A stretch of DNA of 40,935 nt from Clostridia bacterium (GTDB lineage: Bacteria; Bacillota; Clostridia; Oscillospirales; Acutalibacteraceae), in contig JAGALQ010000023.1 of NCBI GenBank assembly GCA_017625095.1, forward strand, positions 1-40,935, read 5' to 3'. The position numbers were made by a program, and so were the translations under genes. The first letter of the stretch is position 1. Each line of letters begins with the position of its first letter. Under the pieces are notes generated by a model. That model made no database searches. It was not told the origin of the DNA and saw only the letters and a program-made list of their open reading frames with translations. Positions 8,202-39,656 of this stretch are shown piece by piece.

Positions 8202-8239
8202 TAATTTAATCAGCATATTACGGCATAGGAGGTTATAAT

Positions 8240-9397
8240 ATGGAAAATAAAATGACGGAACTTTCTGCTGCAATGTATAACAAGGCTGTGTATGATAACA
8301 TGACGGTAAGCAATGCTGTTGCGATGCTCAGGCAATGTACCGATTTCAGAACACTCAGCCAGAAAATAAATGCTTTTTCAAAAGGGCGCGACGTAAAAAA
8401 AGTTCTTATTGACGGATTATGCGAAAACCATCCCGATGCCAACCGCGACACCGTAAGCCGCAAGGTAAGAAACTGGCTTAACGATTGCCAGAATACACTT
8501 CACAAAGAGGATGCTATAGAGCTTTGCTTTGTTCTCGGACTCACTCTTGATGAAAGTGAAAATTTTGTTGCTATGATATGCGAAGAATTTCTTCATTGGA
8601 GAAACCTTGATGAAATACCGTATATTTTTGCTCTTTCAAAAAACATGAGCTACAGACAGGCTGTTGAGCTTCACGATAGAATTAAAGATACCATCGCTGA
8701 AGATGTCAGCAATAATTTATCGGATGACTCTTTCACAGACATTGTGAAAAATGAAATTAAAAACATAGAAAATGAAACGGAGCTTGTCAATTATATTGTA
8801 AATGCAAAACACAGGCTCGGAAGTCTGCATAACACTGCATACGAACTTTTCAGCACAATGATGAATACACTTGAAAGACCGGAAACAGAGCTGGTTGATG
8901 ATGACGACTATTTTCCGGAAACAGAAAATTATTCCGTAGGCAAAATTGTGCAGGCGTATATGCACAGAGAAGATATACCTGAATTTGAAGATAACAAAAA
9001 GAAAAATCTGTATTCTGCTTTGCAGAGAAGTGTTTTAAATAACTGGCCTAATGAAACTGCTCTTTCGCGCATAAAAAACAGACATGCTGATGTAACACGA
9101 AAAGTTCTTATTCTGCTTTTCCTTGCCACATACGATGCGGACAACTATATCTCAATAGATGAAGAAAATGAGGACGATTACCTCTATCCCGAATACGGAT
9201 ACGAACAATCAAAGGATCAGACATTCAAAGAATTTTATACAAATATGAATATATTGCTTGAAAGCAGCGGCTTCAAAACACTTGATCCCCGCGCGCCGTT
9301 TGACTGGATAGTTATTTTCTGTATGTGCGTGGAAGATATATATGATATAGACGGCAGATTCTCGGATTTTCTCCAAACCTTATTCTCCGCTGAATAA
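8240..9397 (+). CDS. Helical, DNA-binding-like protein before the kinase-NACHT gene
   Basis: 385 residues, soluble, no signal peptide. Residues about 25-110 look like a helix-turn-helix plus helical cap: TDFRTLSQKINAF, then DANRDTVSRKVRNWL and DAIELCFVLGLTLDESENF, reminiscent of repressor-type folds that count helices around a small domain. The SRKVRNWL segment resembles a recognition helix. The rest is helical and acidic (DDDDYFPETE near 220, EENEDDYLYPE near 310). I do not recognise a named family, though I recall similar proteins near Clostridial kinases. It lies 84 bp ahead of the kinase-NACHT gene on the same strand with an 11-bp inverted repeat between. It could regulate the cassette, or be a substrate or partner of the kinase. 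Confidence 0.8.
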   Translation: MENKMTELSAAMYNKAVYDNMTVSNAVAMLRQCTDFRTLSQKINAFSKGRDVKKVLIDGLCENHPDANRDTVSRKVRNWLNDCQNTLHKEDAIELCFVLGLTLDESENFVAMICEEFLHWRNLDEIPYIFALSKNMSYRQAVELHDRIKDTIAEDVSNNLSDDSFTDIVKNEIKNIENETELVNYIVNAKHRLGSLHNTAYELFSTMMNTLERPETELVDDDDYFPETENYSVGKIVQAYMHREDIPEFEDNKKKNLYSALQRSVLNNWPNETALSRIKNRHADVTRKVLILLFLATYDADNYISIDEENEDDYLYPEYGYEQSKDQTFKEFYTNMNILLESSGFKTLDPRAPFDWIVIFCMCVEDIYDIDGRFSDFLQTLFSAE

Positions 9398-9416
9398 AAC
9401 GGAAACTGTTTTCAAA

Positions 9417-9467
9417 TTTGTTTTGTCCGATATAGTATCATTTAGTTGCAAAAAGTGACAAAACAAA
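9417..9467 (+). promoter_or_regulatory. 11-bp inverted repeat before the kinase-NACHT gene
   Basis: TTTGTTTTGTC (9417-9427) and GACAAAACAAA (9457-9467) are perfect complements separated by 29 bp. It begins 20 bp after the preceding stop codon and ends 14 bp before the kinase start. It may be a long-looped RNA hairpin, or two half-sites for a dimeric regulator; the upstream protein is a candidate. Confidence 0.5.
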
Positions 9468-9481
9468 AGTGAGGATAATTT

Positions 9482-12391
9482 ATGGATAACAGAATATATT
9501 TAAATTGCGGTGAACATCTTGATTTTCCGGGTATGGAATGCGAGATTGAAACAGTCATCGGCAAAGGATCAAATGCAATTGTATATCTCGGCCGTTACGA
9601 AGACTCCCTTAACAAAGGGTTATTTCACTATGTGTTGATAAAGGAATTATTCCCGTTTCATCCCGAAAATCTTGTTTACAGAAACGAAGATAAATCTGTA
9701 AGCGTGTCCGAAAAAGGAAAAGAATTCTTTGAACTGCAGAAGATAAGCTTTGAACGCGGAAATGAAATTCATTTACGTCTGCTTGAAAAACACCCCGATA
9801 AAATCAGCTCAAACATCAATACTTTCCGTAAAAACGGAACCTTTTACAGCGTTATCGGTTTTGATGCAGGTAAATCCCTTGATAAAACAAGTCTGCATAA
9901 AAACAAAAACATAAGATATCTTGCAAAGCTAATGCTTGATATTATCGACGCTGTGGAAATTTTTCATTCTGCAGGCTATCTTCATCTTGACATAAGTCCC
10001 GATAATATTCTTGTTATCGGTGATGATAAATCATCAAGAGTATCCTTGATAGATTACAACAGTGTTCACCGTGTCGATGAATTAAAGCTGGGCACAGCGC
10101 TTTATTGCAGCATAAAAGACGGTTACACCGCCCCGGAAGTCCGTGCAGGAAATATGTCGGCAATTTCTCAGGCCTCTGATATTTATTCGGTGACATCTGT
10201 TTTCTATTGGCTTATAACAGGAAAAAGGCTTAATCTTTTTCAGAGCCTGTGTAAAAGACCGCCTGATGTGCGCAACTCTCCTTTGCTCAAGGAAGTTCCT
10301 GATACTGTTCTTATGCAAATTGAGCTTATTTTAAGGCGGGGTCTTGCCTCTCTGCCTGAGAGAAGATACCGTAACTGCGAACAGATAAGAAATGACTTCA
10401 CGGAGCTTTTGTCAAGAATTGACGGAACAGGAATTACCCATGCAGCCTTGTGGGAATCCTCAAAGCGAACCGTTGCAAGAATGATAAAAACCAATCCGTC
10501 TTTCCGCCATCTCGAAGAAAATAAGCTTTATCCCATACGTACCGTAACAAGTGACGGCGAAAACCTTATGATGGATAAGGCTGTTGACCTGCAGATACAA
10601 AAAGGTTCGTCTGTTATTTACGGTCCGGCAGGTATAGGTAAAACTACTGCCCTGCTGCATACCGTCTTCAACCGCAACCGTCAGTATTCACCGCTGCAGC
10701 CTGTGTTTATTTACGTTTCTCTTTTCGATTACAACAGCAGCGGAGAAAACTTTATCAAGAACCATATTCTTGAAGATCTGAAGTTCAGCAAAGATATCCG
10801 CAGCATGGAAGATGCACGTAACCGCCTTGTAAAAGTGTTGGACGAAAGCATCACGGTAAAAGGCAAAGAAACCACGGGATATGTTCTGCTCATTGACGGT
10901 TTTAATGAAGCCGGCGGTGATACTGAACCGCTGATAAAAGAAATTCTGTCCTTGGCAGGATTAAAGGGCGTGTCGGTTATTGTCACAACAAGAGGAACGG
11001 GAGATTTGCTTGCGTTCGATTCTCTTGAATTAGCACCGCTTACAGAGCCTGATATTATTGACATACTTTCAGGATATTCTCTCGCTTATCCCGATTCCGA
11101 AAATATAAGAGAGCTTCTCAGAACACCGCTTATGCTTTCGGTTTTCTGCAAAGCGGCTCTCAATAATCATAAACAAATCCTATGCGACAGCGCCGATGAC
11201 CTTCTTCGCGAATACCTTTCGGGACTTTGCGAAAAAGAGAATCTTATGATGCCTGAAGAAACGATGCATAACTGGACGGTTGATGCAGCCGTTAACTTTG
11301 TTCTGCCTTGCATTTGTGCAACGATTTCCGATAAAAACAAAGTTATAACAGACGAAGACCTTCTGAAAACCGTAAAAAAATGCTTCAGGCTTCTCACTTC
11401 TTCGCGTCTCAACCGCATATTCCCCCAATACATTGGTCACAGCGATGATATAAGAAACAACGCCGAAACAGCTGACCAATGGTATGGAATGGTTGTTATT
11501 GATATTCTATGGCGTAAAATGGGTCTTCTGATAAAAGAACCGGGCAGAGGCTATAAGCTGATGCATCAGCTTGTGCAGGAACATCTGCTCGGATCATACC
11601 AATATATCAATAAGTGCATAAAGAAACAAAATATTATAATTTCAGCTGCTTGCGCTTCGGTTTTGGCCGTTGTTGTTTCGCTGCTTATAATATTGATTAA
11701 ACCTGACCCGTACGATACGGAACTGGCAAAAAGCTATCTTGATTCACTGGTTGTTTCCCAGGTTCAGACAGGTGAAGAAATAGCCTGCCTGAAAGAATTG
11801 TCTGAAGCTGATTCAACAGATACCGATGACTTTAATTTTACTCATTTTCTTTTGAAGCAGAGTCTGGACCTTCACACAAGCATCATATCCGGCGGTGCTG
11901 CGGGAAGCGCTGCCATGGCTGAACAGATTTATGAGGAAATGGCAGGCACGGGAAAGGTTATGCCGTGGTCAGGAGAAGAAATAAATGAAACTCATGTTGC
12001 ATATCTTTTCGCTCTGGGCGAAGAAGTAAGCAAAAGCTACGGTCTTTACGCTGAAATACTGAGTTATCTTAACGATAACAAAGATGCGGAGGAGGCATAC
12101 GGAGAAAGCTTCCGCAAACTTCTGAGAGAAAAAATTTCGGCAGATGCTGCTTTAAGTGATGCGCTTTTTTATTCAACATGTAATGTGCATCTTTCCGAAA
12201 TGGAGAAAACTGATCCGAAATCGTATCAATATTACTGGCTTACATTATCCGGATATGCGGATTTAAGTGATATTGAGCCGGAGCAGCCTGATGCTGCCGC
12301 AATAGAAAAACTCAGGAATGACAGCAAAGCGGCATTTGATGAGCTTGAGTCTTCAGAGCTTATAACAATATACAAGAGGGTGAAAGTATGA
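9482..12391 (+). CDS. Ser/Thr kinase-NACHT NTPase-transmembrane fusion
   Basis: 969 residues in four parts. (1) A eukaryote-like protein kinase, about 20-310: glycine loop IGKGSNAIV (26-34), Lys54 in LIKE, catalytic loop HLDISPDN (H168, D170, N175), metal loop DYN (191-193) in place of DFG, and TAPEV in the activation segment. Key catalytic residues are present, so it may be active. (2) A NACHT/STAND NTPase, about 340-700: Walker A GPAGIGKT (381-388), Walker B LLIDGFNEA with D472 and E476, sensor VTTRGT. (3) One membrane helix, about 718-740, after Lys-rich KCIKKQ, so the N-terminus should be inside. (4) A helical domain of about 230 residues predicted outside. The downstream lipoprotein starts within its stop codon (4-bp overlap). 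Kinase and NACHT modules occur in immunity and signalling proteins. This order with an outside domain suggests outside-in sensing, which is inference. Confidence 0.88.
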   Translation: MDNRIYLNCGEHLDFPGMECEIETVIGKGSNAIVYLGRYEDSLNKGLFHYVLIKELFPFHPENLVYRNEDKSVSVSEKGKEFFELQKISFERGNEIHLRLLEKHPDKISSNINTFRKNGTFYSVIGFDAGKSLDKTSLHKNKNIRYLAKLMLDIIDAVEIFHSAGYLHLDISPDNILVIGDDKSSRVSLIDYNSVHRVDELKLGTALYCSIKDGYTAPEVRAGNMSAISQASDIYSVTSVFYWLITGKRLNLFQSLCKRPPDVRNSPLLKEVPDTVLMQIELILRRGLASLPERRYRNCEQIRNDFTELLSRIDGTGITHAALWESSKRTVARMIKTNPSFRHLEENKLYPIRTVTSDGENLMMDKAVDLQIQKGSSVIYGPAGIGKTTALLHTVFNRNRQYSPLQPVFIYVSLFDYNSSGENFIKNHILEDLKFSKDIRSMEDARNRLVKVLDESITVKGKETTGYVLLIDGFNEAGGDTEPLIKEILSLAGLKGVSVIVTTRGTGDLLAFDSLELAPLTEPDIIDILSGYSLAYPDSENIRELLRTPLMLSVFCKAALNNHKQILCDSADDLLREYLSGLCEKENLMMPEETMHNWTVDAAVNFVLPCICATISDKNKVITDEDLLKTVKKCFRLLTSSRLNRIFPQYIGHSDDIRNNAETADQWYGMVVIDILWRKMGLLIKEPGRGYKLMHQLVQEHLLGSYQYINKCIKKQNIIISAACASVLAVVVSLLIILIKPDPYDTELAKSYLDSLVVSQVQTGEEIACLKELSEADSTDTDDFNFTHFLLKQSLDLHTSIISGGAAGSAAMAEQIYEEMAGTGKVMPWSGEEINETHVAYLFALGEEVSKSYGLYAEILSYLNDNKDAEEAYGESFRKLLREKISADAALSDALFYSTCNVHLSEMEKTDPKSYQYYWLTLSGYADLSDIEPEQPDAAAIEKLRNDSKAAFDELESSELITIYKRVKV

Positions 12392-13563
12392 GAAAAATTC
12401 TGAGTTTTTTTATGGTAATGGTATTGGCGCTGTCTTTAGTTGCATGCGGGACAAATAATAATCCTGCAAAAAATGTTGAGTTCGACGGTAAGGATGAAAT
12501 TTTAAAAGCCTGGTCTGAATATCTGAAGGTTAATGAAAAAGAACTTTCTTCAATCAGATGGGGCGTAACATACATAAAGACTTTATGTGAAAAACCAGAT
12601 GCGGCAAACTACAGACGAGCTTTGGCTGCAGCTGAAGCTGTAGGTGCAACGATAAAAAATATCGAAGTGCCGGATTTGAAAATTTCAGATGAAGCTTTTG
12701 CGGCTGCGGTAAAATCAGGTGTAGATTTATCTTTCATCAAAACTGAGTTTTCGGGTTTGGAAACAAGCCTTTACAGCGATGCAGAGCTCTGGGAAAGCTT
12801 GTCCCGTGATATTTCAACAGAATCTTTCTGGTCATACGGAACGGAATATCTCGAAAATACAGCCGATATTCAGTTGCGTCAGGCACAGGTGAACAGTAAT
12901 AATCTCCGATACACTACAAATTATATTCTTCTTATGCTGGGAGAAAGCAGCTTTATACCTGATATATGTAAAGATTGTTCTACTGTTTTCGGTCAAGATA
13001 ACAGCTTTATAAAAACCACCGCTGAGGTTGAGGAGAAAATGTCAGCTTCACTTGATGAATTGGAAGAATGCATCTCTGACTATGCAAAAATCGAAAGTAT
13101 TCAGAATGCCAATCTCTCCGTTATCACCAAAGCTGTATCCACTCACGATTACAGCGAGGTTTATTCTGCAGCGCTGCCATGGGGCAAAGAAACAGATGTT
13201 ATTCCTATGCCCAATTGGAGCGTTTTGCCGGTTTTCTACAGTTATACAACGGATTCTTCCGATGAAATACATTGGACAACTGTAGGTGATGACCTTACAA
13301 ATATACCCAGCCTGTATGTTACTTTTGACAAAACAGCCAAAGATGATTTTGTAAGTTACGTGGAAATGCTTAACTCAGTCGGATATGAACTGATTTCCGG
13401 AAGCGGCAGCTATGACGGCGCTGAGCCGATGAATCTTGTTTTCAAAAAAGGCAACACGGAGTTTTCTGTTGATTGGGATGATAACGCGGCTACAATTCTT
13501 ATTATAGATGCCGATGTTGCAGTCTGTCCCCTATGGTATTTTGTATATCTTCATAATAACTAA
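12388..13563 (+). CDS. Lipoprotein coupled to the kinase-NACHT protein
   Basis: 391 residues. A signal peptide ends in lipobox LVAC with Cys20, so the mature protein should be anchored on the outer face of the membrane. The first 250 residues are helical (KAWSEYLKVNEKELSSIRW, then an Ala-rich helix). The last 120 are mixed and may be a small alpha/beta domain (PSLYVTFDKTAKDDFVSYVE, NLVFKKGNTEFSVDWDD). No enzyme motif is seen. The ATG overlaps the stop of the kinase gene (ATGA), a strong sign of coupled synthesis and of a physical partnership with the outside domain of that protein. A ligand-binding or inhibitor role is plausible but not shown. Confidence 0.87.
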   Translation: MRKILSFFMVMVLALSLVACGTNNNPAKNVEFDGKDEILKAWSEYLKVNEKELSSIRWGVTYIKTLCEKPDAANYRRALAAAEAVGATIKNIEVPDLKISDEAFAAAVKSGVDLSFIKTEFSGLETSLYSDAELWESLSRDISTESFWSYGTEYLENTADIQLRQAQVNSNNLRYTTNYILLMLGESSFIPDICKDCSTVFGQDNSFIKTTAEVEEKMSASLDELEECISDYAKIESIQNANLSVITKAVSTHDYSEVYSAALPWGKETDVIPMPNWSVLPVFYSYTTDSSDEIHWTTVGDDLTNIPSLYVTFDKTAKDDFVSYVEMLNSVGYELISGSGSYDGAEPMNLVFKKGNTEFSVDWDDNAATILIIDADVAVCPLWYFVYLHNN

Positions 13564-13842: not shown

Positions 13843-14244
13843 ATGACAAACATTTACAAACTCAACGGACGCACAGTAAAGGACGCAGCAAAGTTCACCT
13901 GCAGATTTCTCGAAGATAACGAGAATATGGAAACACAGTGCCTTACATCTCTTGATGATGAAATCTTTATCCAGGCACGGGCAAGACACGGCAAGTACAA
14001 GCAGATCCTCGGTCTTGATAAGGCTCTTTCGGTTAAGTTCAATCCAATCGGTAACGATTACTTCTCCGTAGAAATCGGCGAAGCAAAATGGGCAGACAAA
14101 GGCGTTGCCCTCGCAACATCCTGGTTCGTATTCTGGCCCCTTGCAGTAACTTCAGGCATCGGAATCTATAAGCAGAAGTCTCTGCCCGGCAAGATCATCA
14201 GAGAACTCTCAACAGCTTTCATCCCTGAACGCAAGCTTAACTGA
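13843..14244 (+). CDS. Small membrane-associated protein of unknown function
   Basis: 133 residues. The N-terminal 90 residues are soluble and mixed alpha/beta (YKLNGRTVKDAAKFTCRFLE, EIFIQARARHGKYKQIL). A Trp/Phe-rich hydrophobic segment, ALATSWFVFWPLAVTSGIGI, lies near 96-115, followed by a basic tail. A strong AGGAGG sits at 13831-13836. Codons favour ATC, AAG, CGC and CTC more than in the neighbouring cassette, which suggests high expression. A TATAAT at 13804-13809 may be its -10 box, but no good -35 box is visible. Function unknown. Confidence 0.8.
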   Translation: MTNIYKLNGRTVKDAAKFTCRFLEDNENMETQCLTSLDDEIFIQARARHGKYKQILGLDKALSVKFNPIGNDYFSVEIGEAKWADKGVALATSWFVFWPLAVTSGIGIYKQKSLPGKIIRELSTAFIPERKLN

Positions 14245-21246: not shown

Positions 21247-21315
21247 ATGACAATGTATTATCTTACTCATTCAAAATCTTATATAAAATCAGATGTTGTT
21301 TTGTCCGCAATATAG
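21247..21315 (+). CDS. Putative 22-residue leader peptide
   Basis: The frame from ATG 21247 encodes MTMYYLTHSKSYIKSDVVLS plus Ala-Ile and a stop at 21313-21315. AAGGCAGGTGG stands just ahead of it. It starts about 26 nt after the expected transcription start and is followed 28 bp later by an intrinsic terminator and then by the GNAT gene. That order, promoter, short peptide, terminator, enzyme, is the layout of ribosome-mediated attenuation. No competing antiterminator could be drawn with confidence, so the role is inference. It could also be a chance frame. Confidence 0.4.
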   Translation: MTMYYLTHSKSYIKSDVVLSAI

Positions 21316-21342
21316 CTATATTTATATAGATTTTTATTTCGG

Positions 21343-21380
21343 AACTCCTCTGATTTTATTTCAGGGGAGTTTTTTGTTTT
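21343..21380 (+). terminator. Intrinsic terminator or attenuator before the GNAT gene
   Basis: AACTCCTCTGA (21343-21353) pairs with TCAGGGGAGTT (21361-21371), with one mismatch or wobble, and runs into TTTTTTGTTTTTT. It ends 15 bp before the GNAT start codon, so the gene can only be transcribed from the promoter at 21186 by reading through it. Confidence 0.8.
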
Positions 21381-21394
21381 TTGGAGAGATTGCA

Positions 21395-21889
21395 ATGATA
21401 TCATTAAGAGTAACAACAATTGAAGATGTTGATATTTTAACTGCTATTCAGCAAAAGGCTTTTCTTCCGCTTTATGAAAAATATCACGATGCCGGAAATC
21501 CGTGCTTGAGAGATGAAAGAGATATAATTTGCAGATTAAACAATCCTAAATTTATATACTTAACGATTCTTTCAGACGGAAAAATTGTCGGTGGCATTTT
21601 GTACAGAATCAAAGGCTCAACACCGTTTGTAAAGAGGCTTGGCTTGGGCAAGTATTATCTCGGCAGAGTATACATTGCACCCGAATATCAGAATAAAGGT
21701 ATTGCAGCCGAAGCGTTATTGCAATCGGAAAAGTATTTAAAAAGACCAAGAAAAATATATGTTGATTTTCCTGAAGATTTGGATAAAAACAGAAAATGCT
21801 ACATGAAATGCGGTTATACCGATACAGGCAAAAGGTTCGAAACAGAGCCGGGATTAATTCTTGCCTGTTATGAAAAATCAACCCGATAA
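21395..21889 (+). CDS. GNAT-family N-acetyltransferase
   Basis: 164 residues from the ATG at 21395, with GGAGAG ahead; the longer upstream frame runs through a terminator and is rejected. The GNAT core is visible: an N-terminal helix after ISLRVTTIEDVDIL, strand LTILSDGKIVGGILYR, strand YYLGRVYIAPEYQNKGIAAEAL with the acetyl-CoA loop (QNKGIAA), and the C-terminal KCYMKCGYTDTGKR. It transfers an acetyl group from acetyl-CoA to an amine; the substrate is unknown. The possible attenuation ahead of it suggests induction, perhaps by an inhibitor of translation. The two-component system follows 23 bp later. Confidence 0.85.
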   Translation: MISLRVTTIEDVDILTAIQQKAFLPLYEKYHDAGNPCLRDERDIICRLNNPKFIYLTILSDGKIVGGILYRIKGSTPFVKRLGLGKYYLGRVYIAPEYQNKGIAAEALLQSEKYLKRPRKIYVDFPEDLDKNRKCYMKCGYTDTGKRFETEPGLILACYEKSTR

Positions 21890-21912
21890 CAAAATTAAAT
21901 TGAGAGGGAAAT

Positions 21913-22623
21913 ATGAAAATCTGTATATGTGATGACGACTCATTTACCAAAAGAGAAATCAGAAGTCTGCTTGAAAACTTTGCAGAGTCTGAAGAAGGCT
22001 TCGATGTTTCTGATTTCTCTTGCGGTGAGGATCTGATTGAATACTACAACAGCGGCAACGGCTTTGATATTGTTTTTCTTGATATAGAAATGAAAGGCAT
22101 GAACGGAATTGAAGCAGCCGAAACCATAAAATGTATTGCGCCCGAAACAATTATTGTTTTTGTTTCGAGTCATCCGAACTATGTTTTTGATGCATTCAGA
22201 ATTGAAGCGCTGCATTTTCTGGTCAAGCCTGTTAAGAAAGATGAATTTGCCGAAGTTTTCACAAGAGCTATGAAGAAATACACAGCTGTAAACGCAAGCG
22301 TTGTCCTGAAGTGGGAAAGCACAAGGAACAAAATCAGAATCAGCAATATCAGCTATGTTGAAGGCTATCGCAGACATCTGAGTGTTCATACGGCTAACGG
22401 TGTTTATGAAGCCGTAGGCAAAATTTCCGAGATTTATGATGCGCTCAGACCTCACGGCTTTGTCCGCGTGCATCAGGGATTTATTGTTAATATGAACTAC
22501 ATAAAAAACTTCAATACAAATGAGGTTGAACTGACCGACGGCTCAAAGGTTGCAGTCAGTGTCAGAAAAAAACAGGAGGCCTTAAAGGCTTACGATATTT
22601 TTATAAGAAAGTGGGGCTGGTAA
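21913..22623 (+). CDS. LytTR-family response regulator (AgrA-like)
   Basis: 236 residues. The receiver domain (1-120) has the acidic pocket D7-D9 (ICDDDS), phosphoacceptor D57 (VFLDIEMKGMNG) and K105 (LVKPVKK). The LytTR DNA-binding domain (about 135-236) shows ISYVEGYRRHLSVHT and HGFVRVHQGFIVNMNYI. Such regulators bind imperfect direct repeats about two helical turns apart and activate peptide- or antibiotic-related genes. The GAGAGGGAAAT ribosome site is ahead of the ATG. The kinase gene follows after one base, so the pair is coupled. The ABC genes downstream are the likely target. Confidence 0.93.
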   Translation: MKICICDDDSFTKREIRSLLENFAESEEGFDVSDFSCGEDLIEYYNSGNGFDIVFLDIEMKGMNGIEAAETIKCIAPETIIVFVSSHPNYVFDAFRIEALHFLVKPVKKDEFAEVFTRAMKKYTAVNASVVLKWESTRNKIRISNISYVEGYRRHLSVHTANGVYEAVGKISEIYDALRPHGFVRVHQGFIVNMNYIKNFNTNEVELTDGSKVAVSVRKKQEALKAYDIFIRKWGW

Positions 22624-22624
22624 A

Positions 22625-23920
22625 ATGGTAAGAATAATTGCATATTTCCTGTTTGCTTGTTTTGAGATTTATACAATGGATATACTTTTTTCCAACCTTT
22701 CAAAAAGAAAACTAAAGGGCATACAACTCGCTGTATTTATGATTATTGCAATAACAGTCAATACCGTTGTTTCATATTTCTTTGCGGGTACGGGTGCGAT
22801 GCTGCTTGGATTGGGAGTTGTTACGGCATTTGTTTTTGCTCTTGTTTACAGAGTAAAAGTGCATTTTGCCATTATCAGCAGTGTTCTTTTTGTTATGATT
22901 CAGGCAGGTGCAGAAACAATAGTAACTCTTTTGAGCGGAATGCTTATGGGCAAAGAGTCTCTTGATTTTCTTCAGAATGATGAAGTCTTTCTCGGAATGG
23001 GACTTATATGCAAATTCTTTGCGTTTTTCCTCATCTTCTTTGTTTCAAAGAAATTAGGCAAAATTGACCTTGGAATTTCCGGCGGTCTTTCAGCAATGCT
23101 CATAATTCAGCCGATAGCAACAGTTTTTGTTACTCTCGTTATATGCAAATGCACATATGAACTTGAAAGCATTCCTGCGATTTTGTTCTCTGCGGTTGCA
23201 ATTCTTATGATTGCCGCAAACTTAATTACCCTCTTTCTTATTTACAGACAAAAGGACTATGTTGAATCAAAGACAAAGCTCGGCTTTGCCAATGAACAAA
23301 TCAAAAATCAGCTCGCTCACTATGAGGAGCTTTATCGCTACCAAAGCGAAATCCGCGCATTCAGACATGATATAAAAAACAAACTGCTCTCCGTTTCGGG
23401 CCTTCTTGCCGACGGTCAGGTTGATGCCGCCGTTGAAGCAATAAAGGGTGAAGCGGATTTTCTCGACGAAGCCAACAGCTCGGTTATAAATTCGGGCAAT
23501 CCTGCTGTTGATGCCGTTTTGCAGTCAAAGCTTGCCGTTGCGGAAAGCAAAGGCATAACGCTTGAGTTTTCTGTTAAGATTTCGGATAAAATTAATGTCG
23601 ATCTGCTTGAGCTCGGTGTGCTTATCGGCAACGCTCTCGATAATGCAATTGAAGCAGCTCAGGCACTTAAATGCAGCACAGAAAGAACTGTTTTTGCACG
23701 CATTATAACTATGGGCGGCAGAATAGTTATATCCGTTGAGAATCCCGTTGAAGCCGATGTTGACACAAAGCATATCGGTACCGCAAAGGCTGACAAGCTC
23801 AACCACGGCTACGGACTCAAGAGCATGAAAACAATTGCTCAGAAATATGATGGCGATGTTTTTGTTTCCTGCGAGGGAAATATTTTTACAACAAGCATCA
23901 ATATAGGGCAACGAGAATAA
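22625..23920 (+). CDS. GHKL sensor histidine kinase (AgrC-like)
   Basis: 431 residues. About six membrane helices fill residues 1-205, the usual peptide-sensing part of AgrC/VirS-type kinases. A coiled coil leads to the phosphoacceptor H248 (FRHDIKNKLLSVSG). The ATPase domain has an N box with N336, D339 and N340 (GNALDNAIEAA) and a G box at 394-398 (HGYGL). It should phosphorylate the response regulator encoded one base upstream. No agrB or agrD-like gene, and no precursor peptide, is visible nearby, so the signal may be an external peptide or an antibiotic acting at the membrane. Confidence 0.93.
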   Translation: MVRIIAYFLFACFEIYTMDILFSNLSKRKLKGIQLAVFMIIAITVNTVVSYFFAGTGAMLLGLGVVTAFVFALVYRVKVHFAIISSVLFVMIQAGAETIVTLLSGMLMGKESLDFLQNDEVFLGMGLICKFFAFFLIFFVSKKLGKIDLGISGGLSAMLIIQPIATVFVTLVICKCTYELESIPAILFSAVAILMIAANLITLFLIYRQKDYVESKTKLGFANEQIKNQLAHYEELYRYQSEIRAFRHDIKNKLLSVSGLLADGQVDAAVEAIKGEADFLDEANSSVINSGNPAVDAVLQSKLAVAESKGITLEFSVKISDKINVDLLELGVLIGNALDNAIEAAQALKCSTERTVFARIITMGGRIVISVENPVEADVDTKHIGTAKADKLNHGYGLKSMKTIAQKYDGDVFVSCEGNIFTTSINIGQRE

Positions 23921-24179
23921 TTCGAACCTGCCCAAAACTAATCTTTTGGGTTCTTTCCGACGTTTCGGGTTTGAAAGGCATCAGCCTTCCTGCACCCTCA
24001 CCATTCAAAAAACACGGTTCGTATTATACTCATTGCCCTAAGCAACACTTTTGAACATTAAAAAGACACTATTGCAGAACATATTTCAATCGTTTGTTTT
24101 TTCAATTATCATTAATGCTGAAGCAGCGGAGGCTTGTCTTCCGCTGCTGTTATTTTGCACATTAAGGAGGGAAACTTTC
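23921..24179 (+). other. Intergenic control region with hairpin before the ABC genes
   Basis: There is no plus-strand ATG frame of use here, so no hidden precursor peptide. TTTTGGGTTC (about 23944-23953) and TTTCGGGTTT (23963-23972) are similar direct repeats 19 bp apart, a weak candidate for a LytTR site. A TATTAT (24022-24027) could be a -10 box without a good -35, as expected for an activated promoter. AGCAGCGGA (24122-24130) pairs with TCCGCTGCT (24140-24148), followed by GTTATTTTG, possibly an attenuator. Confidence 0.35.
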
Positions 24180-24422
24180 ATGAAAAGTTTAGTAGTTATA
24201 TTTTTTATATCCGCAGGCATTCTCTTTGTTTCAGGAGTTTTCGCCTGCTGCATAAGAATCAAAAATAAAGCATTCAGTAATTTAGGTGTATGGTTGATTA
24301 TTACAGGCGCCCTTAAGGCAGTATGCGGACTTATTGCTATAAGTGATCCTGTGTTTTCAATTATCAGCATTATAGTTGGTCTGGCAGTAATAAGCGCCGC
24401 AAAGTACTTATTAGATAATTAA
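24180..24422 (+). CDS. Small membrane protein before the ABC pair
   Basis: 80 residues with three hydrophobic segments: about 4-22 (VVIFFISAGILFVSGVFA), 33-53 (LGVWLIITGALKAVCGLIAI) and 56-74 (VFSIISIIVGLAVISAA). The ATG at 24180 follows AAGGAGG; the upstream TTG frame is rejected because it crosses the hairpin. It is 14 bp ahead of the first ABC gene and in the same operon. It could be an accessory or immunity-type subunit of the exporter, but no family is recognised. Confidence 0.7.
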   Translation: MKSLVVIFFISAGILFVSGVFACCIRIKNKAFSNLGVWLIITGALKAVCGLIAISDPVFSIISIIVGLAVISAAKYLLDN

Positions 24423-36080: not shown

Positions 36081-36785
36081 TTAGCCTGCTTTTCGCATAT
36101 ATTCGTAGAAATCATCCTGCAGAACGCTGTAGGATTTTTTGAGAACGGGCTTGCCATTCTTCTGTAAAATCGGGTCGTCGTTTTCATCAACGGCAGGTTT
36201 TGAAATCCATTTTTTACTGCTGCTTACCTGCATAATTCTTTCCTTGACCGTGCCTCGTAAGCTTTCTTCCTTGCACCGTTTTGACCAGAGAATTTCTTTT
36301 TCGACAACGGGAATATACACGACGTGCAGATGATAATGGTAAACATCTTGTCCGAGCGCTTCGGACATTGCTTTGTTTCTTTCGTCGGCGTGCATGACTG
36401 CGGAGAGAATATATTCTTCACCGCCTACGATTTTTATTGCCGCTTTGTAAGCATCCTCATAGAATTTTTTTGCGAACTCGTAACCGCCGTGATTGTAAAA
36501 GTAAGCGGAGTTGACATCGAAAATAAGTTCGCCGTATTTGTTTGCATCGGGCTTCAGACCTCTTGTAGAAATGATTTTTTCTTCGAGCATTTTATTGAAA
36601 ATGTTTTCGTAAGTGTCGTTCGGTTTTTTGAAGTGAACATTGAACGGAGTCATTTCCGTGACGATATCGGAATTGACATAAGACTCTTTTTCTCGTTCGT
36701 TGTGTCGCTGAACATTGGCTATTTTTCCGTCTGCAAGATTTACATTTCGGGCGGTGACTCGGTCAACGCCGTCATTTCTTGCCAT
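36081..36785 (-). pseudogene. MobV-family relaxase, truncated at the C-terminus
   Basis: 234 residues from the ATG at 36785 (AAGGAG 11 nt ahead). The first Met of the frame at 36806 overlaps this ribosome site and is rejected. N-terminal motif ARNDGVDRVTARNVN, then PFNVHFKKPNDTYENIFNKM, and the metal-binding YHYHLHVVYIP. Such enzymes nick oriT and lead the strand in mobilization. Relatives continue past EYMRKAG for more than 150 residues; here a stop follows at once and AAA+ sequence begins. The catalytic N-terminus is complete, so it may still nick, but the element is probably impaired in transfer. The oriT candidate is just upstream. Confidence 0.75.
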
Positions 36786-36838
36786 ATAAATTTTTACTCC
36801 TTTCATCGTTTTGTATATACACTGCGAGCCACAGGGGA

Positions 36839-36858
36839 TACACTTCTGCGGAAGTGTA
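36839..36858. other. Candidate oriT hairpin
   Basis: TACACTTC-TGCG-GAAGTGTA is a perfect 8-bp inverted repeat, 54 bp upstream of the relaxase start, flanked by GAGCCACAGGGGA and ATAACCCACTATAAC. Location and form fit the oriT of MobV relaxases, which act next to a hairpin ahead of their own gene. The frame spanning 36772-37023 here is not considered coding. Confidence 0.5.
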
Positions 36859-37030
36859 ATAACCCACTATAACACTTTCATCCGTACCGTCTGCAAAGTG
36901 CCGTGGGCTGTCTGCGGACAGTGGGTTGGTTTGCGGCTCTTGCGAGAGCCTTGACGGATTTACCCCATAAATTTTTGTTGCAAATCCGTGAGCCGATGAA
37001 ACTTTCTGACCTGCATTTTTCATCAGCTCT

Positions 37031-37110
37031 GTGACGGTTATGACAGTTATGACGGTTAATTTAGTACCGCACCAAAAACTGTCATAACCGTCATTACCGT
37101 CATCCGTCAG
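37031..37110. other. Iteron-like repeats and 16-bp inverted repeat, possible origin
   Basis: Plus strand 37032-37059 has three copies of a 10-bp unit TGAC(G/A)GTTAT. The complement of the same unit recurs at 37079-37105. GACGGTTATGACAGTT (37033-37048) and AACTGTCATAACCGTC (37077-37092) form a perfect 16-bp inverted repeat. The cluster overlaps the 3' end of the RepA-like gene. It could be an origin for the excised element or a terminator-type structure. Confidence 0.5.
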
Positions 37111-38257
37111 AAGAAATCAAACTCAAATTGATGATTCTTCTGTCCGGCTTTCGGTGGTATTCGTATCGGATTTCATAATCGTTTTCGAGGGTTCCCGCAC
37201 CTATGTTCAGCTTCTTTGTCAGAGCATTCGGTGCGATATCGAGCTTTAAAATTTCTACAAGCTCCGATGCGTTACCGTTCCATTTCGGGTTATCGGTTGT
37301 GATGAACTCTGCGATTTTCAGGACTATCGGGTCGGGCGGAGATTTCCATAATTCGGTTTCTGCGTGGTCCAAATCCCAAAGAAGTTTTTCTTGATTTCTG
37401 ATGAGGTAGAGCCTCTGGTCGCATTGGTCTCTGCCGACGATGTCAAGCGTTGCCGAGCTGTCGGTACGCCGTTCTTTTTGAAGGACGAACGCACCGTCGG
37501 CACACCCGAGGATACCCGTTGTTCCCGAAATCATATCGAACTTATCCGACGCTTGCTGTTTCCTTGTGTGATGAACAATCAGCAGACAGATTTCTTTTTG
37601 GTCGGCGAATTTTTTGAGGTTGCCGACACATTCGTAATCGTTTGCGTAGCTGTAACTGTCGCCGTTGCCTTGCCTGATTTTTTGAAGAGTGTCGATGATT
37701 ATGAGCCGTGTGTCCGGATGATGATTTATAAATTCTTCGAGCTGGTCTTCAAGTCCTTCGCCGAGTTTTTTCGCCGTGATTGCGAAAAATAAATTTGCCG
37801 TTCCGTCAACTCCGAACATTCTGTTCATTCGTTTCTGCAGTCTGCGGTGGTCATCTTCAAGAGCGAGATAGAGAACTGTGCTTTGCTTCACTTCGTAGTC
37901 CCACAGCATCTGTCCTGTTGCGATGTGATAGGCAAGCTGTGCAACGAGAAATGATTTGCCGACCTTTGGCGCACCTGCAAGGATATATGTTCCTGGATAA
38001 ATAAGATTCTCTACTATTGCGGGCTTGCTTCTGTAAACCGATTCAAACAGTTCATCAAGACTTACTGTCGGCAGAAAGTTTTTGCTTGACTCTTGATTAA
38101 GTTTATGCCCCAATAAAATTAATCGGTCTTTTCTGTCTTTACTATTGATTTCTTCGGGTTCAGGTGTTATACTGTTAATAATATTTGTGGTTGGCTGTTC
38201 ACCGTCTGCGCCAACAGACGGAGTCTGAACAGTCATTTTTTTATTTGTGGAGGACAT
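37100..38257 (-). CDS. RepA-like AAA family ATPase
   Basis: 385 residues. A disordered N-terminus (1-65) is followed by a RecA-like ATPase of the AAA_25/RepA type: Walker A AGAPKVGKS (near 95), LYLALEDD, Walker B LIIIDTLQKI, and LLIVHHTRK. The C-terminal 70 residues look like a winged helix (NASELVEILKLDI, ALTKKLNIGAGTL). Such hexameric ATPases serve replication or maintenance of mobile elements. It overlaps the MobC-like gene by 17 bp. The iteron-like cluster lies at its 3' end, consistent with an origin. GGGGGAACAAG precedes the ATG. Confidence 0.85.
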   Translation of the reverse strand: MSSTNKKMTVQTPSVGADGEQPTTNIINSITPEPEEINSKDRKDRLILLGHKLNQESSKNFLPTVSLDELFESVYRSKPAIVENLIYPGTYILAGAPKVGKSFLVAQLAYHIATGQMLWDYEVKQSTVLYLALEDDHRRLQKRMNRMFGVDGTANLFFAITAKKLGEGLEDQLEEFINHHPDTRLIIIDTLQKIRQGNGDSYSYANDYECVGNLKKFADQKEICLLIVHHTRKQQASDKFDMISGTTGILGCADGAFVLQKERRTDSSATLDIVGRDQCDQRLYLIRNQEKLLWDLDHAETELWKSPPDPIVLKIAEFITTDNPKWNGNASELVEILKLDIAPNALTKKLNIGAGTLENDYEIRYEYHRKPDRRIINLSLISSDG

Positions 38258-38579
38258 CTTGTTCCCCCTTAATTCCGCCGAGAATATCGCACATCATCTT
38301 TAAAACTTCAAGCAGGTCTTTGTCAATCTGCCGACCTGCTTCAATGCGTTTCAGCTCGTGATACACCTTTGCGAAATCTTCTTTGAGTGCTTTATAAACT
38401 CTCGGATTTGGCATAACCTCAACGTCGTGGTTCGTCAGCTTCCTCGTTATATATTCCTGCTTTGACAGTCCCGAGAGCCTGACAAATTCATCGATTGTCT
38501 GTCCTTCTTCGGGCGATACTCTGAACGAAACTGTTTTGTTTCTCCAACGGTTGCGATTGTCTAAATTTTTCTCTGACAT
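38241..38579 (-). CDS. MobC-like relaxosome accessory protein
   Basis: 112 residues. The N-terminal RNKTVSFRVSPEEGQTIDEF and LSGLSKQEYITRKLTN form a ribbon-helix-helix fold typical of MobC/relaxosome proteins, followed by a long helical segment. It would bind oriT and help the relaxase. The ATG follows directly on the integrase stop codon, so it is translationally coupled, and it overlaps the next gene by 17 bp. Confidence 0.78.
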   Translation of the reverse strand: MSEKNLDNRNRWRNKTVSFRVSPEEGQTIDEFVRLSGLSKQEYITRKLTNHDVEVMPNPRVYKALKEDFAKVYHELKRIEAGRQIDKDLLEVLKMMCDILGGIKGEQDVLHK

Positions 38580-39656
38580 TTAAACATCGTTCCTTTCAAA
38601 ATTTAATTTCCTTGCCATTTCCTGTTGAGCAGAGGGGAAGAGGTGAGCGTATCTGTATGTTATTTCTATGCTCTCGTGACCGACCCGGTCAGCGATTGCA
38701 AGAGCCGAGAATCCCATATCAATCAGCAGAGAAATGTGACTGTGCCGCAAATCGTGGATTCTTATTCGCTGTATTCCGACCGCCCGTGAGCCTCGCTCAA
38801 TTTCGTTGCTCAGATATTTTTTTGATATTTTGAATATCCGTTCCGTGCTTTCGAGTCCGTAAATCATCTTCAGGTATTCCTGCATTTCTTCGCAGAGGAA
38901 ACTCGGCATTGTGATTGTTCGGTTACTCTTTTTTGTTTTGGGAGAGGTGATGATGTCCTTGCCTTTTATCCTCTGATACGACTTGTTGATTCGCACGGTT
39001 CCCTTGACGAAGTCAAAATCTTCGGCTGTCAGGGCAAGCAGCTCGCCCACACGGATACCGCACCAGTAGAGCATTTCAAAAGCGTAGAACGAAACGGGTT
39101 TATCCATTATTTCGTAAGAGAACAGCTTGTACTCATCTTTGGTCCAGAACTTCATCTCTTTTGTTTCTTCCTTGCCCATATTTCCCGCTTTTGCTGCGGG
39201 GTTGGACCGCAAATCGTAGTGCCTTACTGCGTGATTGAAAATCGCACTTAGCTGATTGTGCATCGTTTTGAGATAGGTTGCCGAGTACGGTTTCGCTTTG
39301 CTGTCACGGTATGCCAGCATTTCGTTCTGCCAGGCTATTACATCCTTGGTCGTGATCTGATTCATCGGTTTGTCTCCGAAGTAGGGGACTATTTTGTTTT
39401 CGATGATGTGTTGCTTTGTCAGCCAGGTTGTGTCTTTGAGCCTTAATTTTGTATCATTAAAATACAGCTCAACGAATGCTTTGAAGCTCATATCGAGATT
39501 TGCTTCGGACTGTTGTTTGAAGGTCAGCTCCCATTCCTGAGCCTCTTTCTTGGTTTTAAACCCTCGCTTGCATTTCTGCTTGCGTTCGCCTTTCCAGTTG
39601 GTGTATCTGAAAACCGAGTACCAAGTGCCGCTTTCTTCGTTTTTATATACCGGCAT
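38580..39656 (-). CDS. int: Tyrosine recombinase/integrase (Tn916-like)
   Basis: 358 residues. The N-terminal GTWYSVFRYTNWKGERKQKC is the arm-binding domain, residues about 55-150 the SAM-like core-binding domain (SFKAFVELYFNDTKLRL), and the catalytic domain follows with R202 (CGIRVGELL), H301 and R304 (HDLRHSHIS), H327 (VGHESIEITY) and nucleophile Y336 (RYAHL). All catalytic residues are present, so it is probably active. It should cut and join the 13-bp core. The start ATG follows the stop of the excisionase-like gene without a gap. Confidence 0.95.
   Translation of the reverse strand: MPVYKNEESGTWYSVFRYTNWKGERKQKCKRGFKTKKEAQEWELTFKQQSEANLDMSFKAFVELYFNDTKLRLKDTTWLTKQHIIENKIVPYFGDKPMNQITTKDVIAWQNEMLAYRDSKAKPYSATYLKTMHNQLSAIFNHAVRHYDLRSNPAAKAGNMGKEETKEMKFWTKDEYKLFSYEIMDKPVSFYAFEMLYWCGIRVGELLALTAEDFDFVKGTVRINKSYQRIKGKDIITSPKTKKSNRTITMPSFLCEEMQEYLKMIYGLESTERIFKISKKYLSNEIERGSRAVGIQRIRIHDLRHSHISLLIDMGFSALAIADRVGHESIEITYRYAHLFPSAQQEMARKLNFERNDV

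Follow-up and report, generated by a model that had tools for sequence, protein, structure and literature searches.

A recurrent three-gene locus of Clostridia encodes a predicted membrane-anchored kinase-NACHT protein together with a helix-turn-helix protein and a lipoprotein

Three adjacent genes on a contig of a Clostridia bacterium raise the question whether a helix-turn-helix (HTH) protein, a kinase-NACHT protein and a lipoprotein form one system, and whether such a system would serve defence or another kind of signalling. The stretch of DNA that was analysed (the window, 40,935 nt) is the whole of contig C20 of genome G000 (2.46 Mb, 87% complete). The features referred to below are the following.

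8240..9397, + strand: gene A, open reading frame of 385 aa, helical protein
9482..12391, + strand: gene B, open reading frame of 969 aa, kinase, NACHT, membrane helix and outside domain
9482..10471, + strand: B residues 1-330, Hanks-type protein kinase domain with catalytic residues kept (boundary set by us)
10595..11617, + strand: B residues 372-712, NACHT STAND NTPase module (boundary set by us)
11627..11695, + strand: B residues ~716-738, membrane helix according to simple hydropathy
11696..12388, + strand: B residues ~739-969, predicted outside domain, from its position behind the membrane helix
12388..13563, + strand: gene C, open reading frame of a 391-aa lipoprotein, 4-bp overlap with B
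13843..14244, + strand: ORF D, open reading frame of 133 aa, possible fourth gene

A, B and C are all encoded on the + strand, with a spacing of 84 bp between A and B and the overlap ATGA between B and C. Each is preceded by a Shine-Dalgarno-like stretch (A, AGGAGG at 8227-8232; B, GAGG at 9471-9474; C, GAGGG at 12376-12380). The G+C content of the three genes (38-42%) is similar to that of the rest of the window (41.6%), so that there is no sign of a recent import of the trio.

B matches the Pfam families Pkinase (5.3e-14) and NACHT (1.1e-7; 32.2 bits versus a cut-off of 26.7), both above the curated cut-offs, and NACHT is found at E ≤ 0.01 in all eight B sequences compared (Pfam). The kinase residues K54, H168, D170, N175 and D191 are invariant in an alignment of these eight sequences, as are G381, G384, G386 and K387 of Walker A and the residues D472 and E476. 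With the VAIK Lys, HxD, the Asn and the DFG Asp in place, B would be classed as a Hanks-type kinase, and the catalytic Asp (D191) is kept, activity being predicted from the residues. The NACHT domain with its Walker A and Walker B motifs likewise predicts a STAND NTPase, NACHT being the best-scoring STAND model for B. The fusion of a kinase to a STAND module, as in PknK-type kinases, is also present.

A cytoplasmic C-terminal repeat sensor is typical of STAND NTPases. No repeat family was found in B at E ≤ 1 (Pfam); a membrane helix and the outside domain occupy this place instead. The hydrophobic helix starts at about residue 716 (hydropathy) and is located at the same place in seven relatives. 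SNaCT is absent from the Pfam families listed for B and these seven relatives (E ≤ 0.01), and the same library found SNaCT14 in another NACHT protein (L149). No NCH family is listed in the Pfam scans of B and its relatives either, a result that is conditional on Pfam holding NCH models, and no Avs model is among the 25 of 35 PADLOC families listed for B. The receptor-kinase architecture of B can be assumed with high confidence.

Named kinase systems were also considered for B. The MADS kinase MAD6 (NF047741) reaches 60.6 bits versus a cut-off of 460 and covers only B residues 100-312. PADLOC matches to Mokosh and PD-T4-6 are confined to residues 21-350, the kinase part (25 of 35 families listed), and none of the 16 Pfam families that B matches at E ≤ 1 is of the HipA type.

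Residues ~22-146 of A form a divergent HTH domain of the XRE (Cro/C1) type, the domain of XRE-type regulators, through which A may bind DNA. The remainder of A, about 240 residues beyond the HTH domain, is all-helical. By its sequence, C has an N-terminal signal peptide and a lipobox (LVAC), and it contains no pore, hydrolase or toxin family (Pfam, NCBIfam, PADLOC). Neither A nor C matches any Pfam family at E ≤ 1. A is present in one of 11 genomes of the genus and was matched in 11 of 300 genomes of the family; two of the latter matches, both weak, come from open reading frames of 1355-1371 aa that probably do not represent A. No relative of C was found in the 300 family genomes.

An earlier note on this DNA had described a three-gene cassette with a 4-bp overlap of B and C, a kinase, a NACHT module and a membrane helix in B, the residues K54, H168, D170, N175, K387, D472 and E476, a DNA-binding-like A and a lipoprotein C. 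The open reading frames, the Pfam matches, the hydropathy, the eight-sequence alignment, the HTH domain of A and the lipobox bear out this description throughout. It had also considered the kinase possibly atypical, with DYN in place of DFG. This is correct insofar as all eight sequences have Asn in place of the Gly of DFG, D191 and N193 being invariant in 8/8; it does not point to a dead kinase, since D191 is invariant.

The same order of genes is found elsewhere. At eight loci including the window, seven of which are members of a search started from A, an A relative precedes a kinase-NACHT-membrane-helix gene, and a lipoprotein gene follows B in all seven loci (window included) where the contig continues. 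The relatives are located in Anaeromassilibacillus sp. An172 (L114), three Lachnospiraceae MAGs (L115, L116, L117), a Hungatella MAG (L118), Clostridia RGIG1828 (L122) and Candidatus Lachnoclostridium stercoripullorum (L127). As L115 hardly differs from L117, the number of independent cases is lower by one. The contig of L122 ends 178 bases 3' of B. Lipoproteins of the relatives were called by signal peptide and lipobox as read from the sequences; that of L127 was at first hidden by a longer opposite frame. Intergenic spacing across the trio loci ranges from 34 to 226 bp between A and B and from -4 to 136 bp between B and the lipoprotein gene. As the gene order is maintained in the relatives, the trio exceeds a chance arrangement.

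Searches started from B and from the NACHT domain gave a consistent picture. Of 300 family genomes, 289 contain a match to B, and most of those listed are confined to the kinase part. Below E 1e-100, two matches are found, the window genome and G106 (gene coordinates identical to L114), and A is present in both; in G106, an A relative precedes B and a gene for a 282-aa lipoprotein follows. Weaker B matches that reach into the NTPase occur in G045 and G239, both with an adjoining A relative. Of the 381 class genomes covered by the NACHT search, 14 had hits, and kinase-NACHT proteins were recognised in two of them, the window genome and G655 (corresponding to L122), both with A. Six further genomes (G127, G219, G387, G458, G506, G589; NACHT E 9.8e-6 or weaker) are outside this reading, and seven regions of the six other genomes contain no match to the A or kinase profile. 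NACHT proteins without a kinase match include NACHT-WD40 (L146), NACHT-SNaCT14 (L149) and two TIR-NACHT proteins, with TIR_2 just above the cut-off in L148 (3.1e-6) and below it in L147 (2.8e-4); L150-L152 are outside the Pfam scan. The earlier note had proposed to look for the trio in other genomes, and had named two results that would speak against it, kinase-NACHT homologues scattered without the two neighbours and an existing name for the trio. Co-occurrence was found in eight loci, with the lipoprotein in all seven continuing contigs; A accompanies B in both matches below E 1e-100 and in both kinase-NACHT genes of the NACHT search; and no named system was found in Pfam, NCBIfam, PADLOC or the literature searched. 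A is a regular partner of B, not an exclusive one.

A is one member of a wide clostridial family of HTH proteins that adjoin kinases, including kinases without NACHT. In the A search of named genomes, a kinase is located within 5 kb in 12 of 15 loci, seven of these being kinase-NACHT genes; A relatives near kinases without NACHT are found in L119, L121, L123, L124 and L126. No kinase lies within 5 kb of the A relative in L113 and L120, and the contig of L125 (4.7 kb) is too short to tell. In L113 (9950-11963), the A relative is followed by a lipoprotein of another kind and by what look like rpoB/rpoC genes. Among ten loci with short or distant A relatives, nine have a kinase in the fetched stretch. 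Starting from kinases, A is found within 5 kb of 8/9 P-loop kinases versus 1/20 others (Fisher p=1.8e-5), in a set of 29 kinase ORFs from 19 loci that was hand-picked from the upper part of the B search and on whose loci the A profile was partly trained. All seven P-loop kinases scanned match NACHT, NB-ARC or related NTPases, and three carry TPRs. Since many A relatives pair with kinases without an NTPase domain, the A-kinase pairing is not specific to immunity.

The genes in the vicinity of the window trio include no defence genes. Sister systems, in which A relatives adjoin kinase-STAND genes, have other surroundings. On the Ruminococcus albus plasmid pRUMAL01, the A-like RUMAL_RS17560 and the NB-ARC kinase RS17555 are flanked by a PIN/antitoxin pair on one side and BrxL on the other, and ThiF and JAB genes lie further out. 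On the Butyrivibrio plasmid pCY186, a caspase-family gene is located ~3.4 kb from the A-like BPR_RS18980 and the kinase RS18975. These are the two records inspected (H3, H6) of 58 plasmid records matching B; no relative was found in the viral contigs or phage records searched. A PADLOC scan of neighbours covered 130 of 140 proteins from 17 of 19 A-kinase loci, among them L044 without a P-loop; eight proteins of the near-duplicate L117 and one each of L034 and L127 are outside it, and L096 gave none. The 25 of 125 families listed include BrxL (1.5e-210), HEC-05 (3e-190, L114), E1-E2, PDC-S01 (L128), the type I restriction family REase_I (L042), and Cas3c, Cas8c, Cas7c and Cas4c, which were assigned to L037 from protein starts. 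The control consisted of 127 neighbours of zinc-ribbon kinase loci, with some kinases still among them; its 25 listed families, of 57, are kinases together with one trypsin-like and one candidate family. In L037 (6007-19306), A and a kinase-NB-ARC gene are followed by genes for a predicted four-helix membrane protein and a lipoprotein, and the adjoining genes look like type I-C cas genes.

The individual parts of the trio proteins were compared between the loci. L115 (masked bases, near-identical to L117) is outside the A alignment and the identity comparison, and kinase and NACHT values were dropped for L117 and L118, as a faulty kinase cut also spoils the NACHT cut. The window A shares 28-33% identity with six relatives (z 51-75), the kinase 38-42% with four (z 66-113) and the NACHT part 26-32% with the same four (z 52-65). 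The window outside domain, in contrast, has no detectable relation to those of six relatives (z -1.1 to 1.4), nor does the window lipoprotein to five others (z 0.7 to 2.2); the lipoproteins compared start at their first Cys, so that those of L116 and L118 retain some surplus residues. The outside domain of L114 is related to those of four other loci (z 24-35; -0.5 for L122) and its lipoprotein to four others (z 18-30). Judged by these scores, L114-L118 and L127 have an outside-domain family and a lipoprotein family in common, the outside domain of L122 is a different one, and the window pair occupies the same places without being detectably related.

The reading that we favour, with about an even chance of being right, is that the trio is a membrane-anchored STAND (NLR-like) receptor kinase with an HTH partner, probably engaged in defence or another conflict. 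That A is a direct partner of the kinase is likely: the gene pairing is observed, the contact is proposed. Defence or another conflict would be the most likely role, though here the balance is close to even. In B, the kinase takes the position that TIR has in NACHT relatives, and defence genes are found next to some sister systems, which together suggest such a role; the case is built on NACHT/STAND kinship and some sister neighbourhoods, not on the surroundings of the window.

The trio might instead be a general kinase for envelope stress or nutrient sensing with a STAND switch, comparable to PknK and MalT, in which A is a phosphorylated transcription factor and no conflict is involved. Both the kinase PknK and the regulator MalT are named STAND proteins, which multimerise once an inducer opens the ATP-bound form (PMC4381067; this and the other papers cited by PMC number were available as excerpts). 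A-type HTH proteins beside NTPase-less kinases in many class genomes, the even G+C and the absence of defence genes among the window neighbours are consistent with such a function, which we consider a serious possibility while leaning away from it. It accounts less well for the patchy occurrence in the genus (one of 11 genomes) and a decayed B fragment elsewhere in the genome, for sister systems on plasmids and for the defence genes beside them, of which none is among the 25 control families listed. The outside pair, not detectably related between the window and its relatives, also argues against it.

An arrangement of an HTH gene and a kinase gene is also known from toxin-antitoxin systems. 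In a HipBA-like system, A would repress the operon and inhibit B, and the kinase, once triggered, would phosphorylate a housekeeping target and arrest growth. The HTH domain of A and its position before the kinase gene fit this, as do 7/10 loci with short or distant A relatives in which the HTH and kinase genes lie head to head. Furthermore, phage protection is reported for DS-6, which pairs a HipA-like kinase with a partner of the DNA-binding type (DefensePredictor, PMC13092281). Like A and B, HipBA and DS-6 combine such a partner with a serine/threonine kinase (for DS-6, PMC13092281), but this kinase is of another family and has neither an NTPase nor a membrane part. B is of the Hanks type and matches no HipA family in Pfam (E ≤ 1), and A is about 240 residues larger than its HTH domain, so that a HipBA-like function is rather unlikely. 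XRE-type HTH proteins of ~140-150 aa head to head with protein kinases were seen in Clostridia in L101, L103-L107 and L109; a literature search for such pairs found nothing.

An effector role in place of a sensor role for C and the outside domain, under control of the kinase, NACHT and HTH parts, would agree with the overlap of C and B, the lipoprotein gene after B in 7/7 loci and the divergence of both outside parts of the window from those of the relatives, but is improbable, as known STAND proteins use their variable C-terminal part for sensing (the excerpt of PMC10907252 agrees) and no pore, hydrolase or toxin family is found in C.

For the favoured receptor kinase, the following course can be proposed. 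B would use its outside domain, probably in concert with lipoprotein C, to sense something at the cell surface or in the envelope. By analogy with STAND proteins, sensing would release the NACHT module, with exchange of ADP for ATP and multimerisation at the membrane. This would gather the kinase domains and could activate them, their catalytic residues being kept. The kinase might then act on the HTH protein A, or be restrained by it, and the outcome would be altered transcription or a growth stop.

Neither the trio nor a kinase-NACHT membrane protein was found described in the literature searched, Pfam, NCBIfam or PADLOC. PknK-type kinases are soluble and combine a MalT-like STAND module with a repeat sensor, a pattern that B does not fit: B is membrane-anchored, NACHT scores best, no repeat sensor was found and the HTH domain is encoded by a separate gene. 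They share with B the combination of a kinase with a STAND NTPase (PMC4381067). The sister systems (pRUMAL01, pCY186, L033, L040, L042 and others) contain the same A and kinase families, the kinase being fused, as in B, to a STAND NTPase; unlike in B, no membrane helix lies behind the NTPase, and L033, L040 and L042 carry TPRs. Both plasmid systems are annotated only as hypothetical or NB-ARC proteins. TIR-NACHT proteins have a NACHT module reached by the same profile, with TIR in place of the kinase and no A gene in the stretches read.

In bNACHT antiphage proteins, a central NACHT couples sensing to response and, as in B, is preceded by an enzymatic domain at the N-terminus and followed by a variable part at the C-terminus (PMC12169576). 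B has a kinase where bNACHT has a nuclease or unknown effector, and the window system has in addition a membrane helix, an outside domain and regular HTH and lipoprotein neighbours. A NACHT-metallophosphatase protein also protects against phage (DefensePredictor, PMC13092281). Kinases serve as effector domains in ternary conflict systems (PMC7159879; also PMC8195603), mostly with disrupted catalytic residues (PMC7159879), whereas B keeps them. Some NACHT-containing proteins of the multicellular bacterium Thiohalocapsa PB-PSB1 are predicted at the membrane or in the periplasm, so that outward NACHT proteins have been proposed before (PMC10907252). Their CLec sensor (NACHT/CLec) is diversified by a retroelement (DGR), unlike B, and no kinase-NACHT fusion with a lipoprotein and an HTH gene is described in the excerpt of that paper. 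Kinase-STAND fusions (PknK) and predicted membrane or periplasmic NACHT proteins (PMC10907252) are thus already known.

More tentatively, the trio may represent a class of outward-looking immune-type receptors, with a NACHT switch in a single-pass membrane kinase, an exchangeable pair of outside domain and lipoprotein and an HTH phospho-relay, that heads the large, hitherto undescribed HTH-kinase family of Clostridia. Bacteria would in that case possess an equivalent of receptor kinases joined to an NLR core. Most of the bacterial NLR relatives investigated to date detect phage components in the cytoplasm; with a membrane-anchored kinase, danger would be perceived at the cell surface and the signal passed on by phosphorylation. 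The HTH protein, as a regular partner, would offer a handle on where the signal goes, the exchanged outside pair a route to ligands, and the A family a handle on many unannotated clostridial kinase systems.

ORF D, downstream of the trio, has a second, 71% identical copy in the same genome (G000 contig C12, 13116-13514; L154, L050), and a decayed piece of B, 38 codons long and containing a stop, lies about 1 kb from this copy. ORF D is absent from the ten other genus genomes searched and has a 37% match in L109, where a short A relative and a kinase are also encoded. It could belong to the unit as a fourth gene, or mark the same mobile segment. Elsewhere in the window, genes for a Mob_Pre relaxase, an AAA_25 protein and a tyrosine integrase (36081-39656) form an integrative mobilisable element ~22 kb from the trio, and the region 21293-24422 resembles an agr-like cluster of two-component and peptide-processing genes beside paired ABC transporters.
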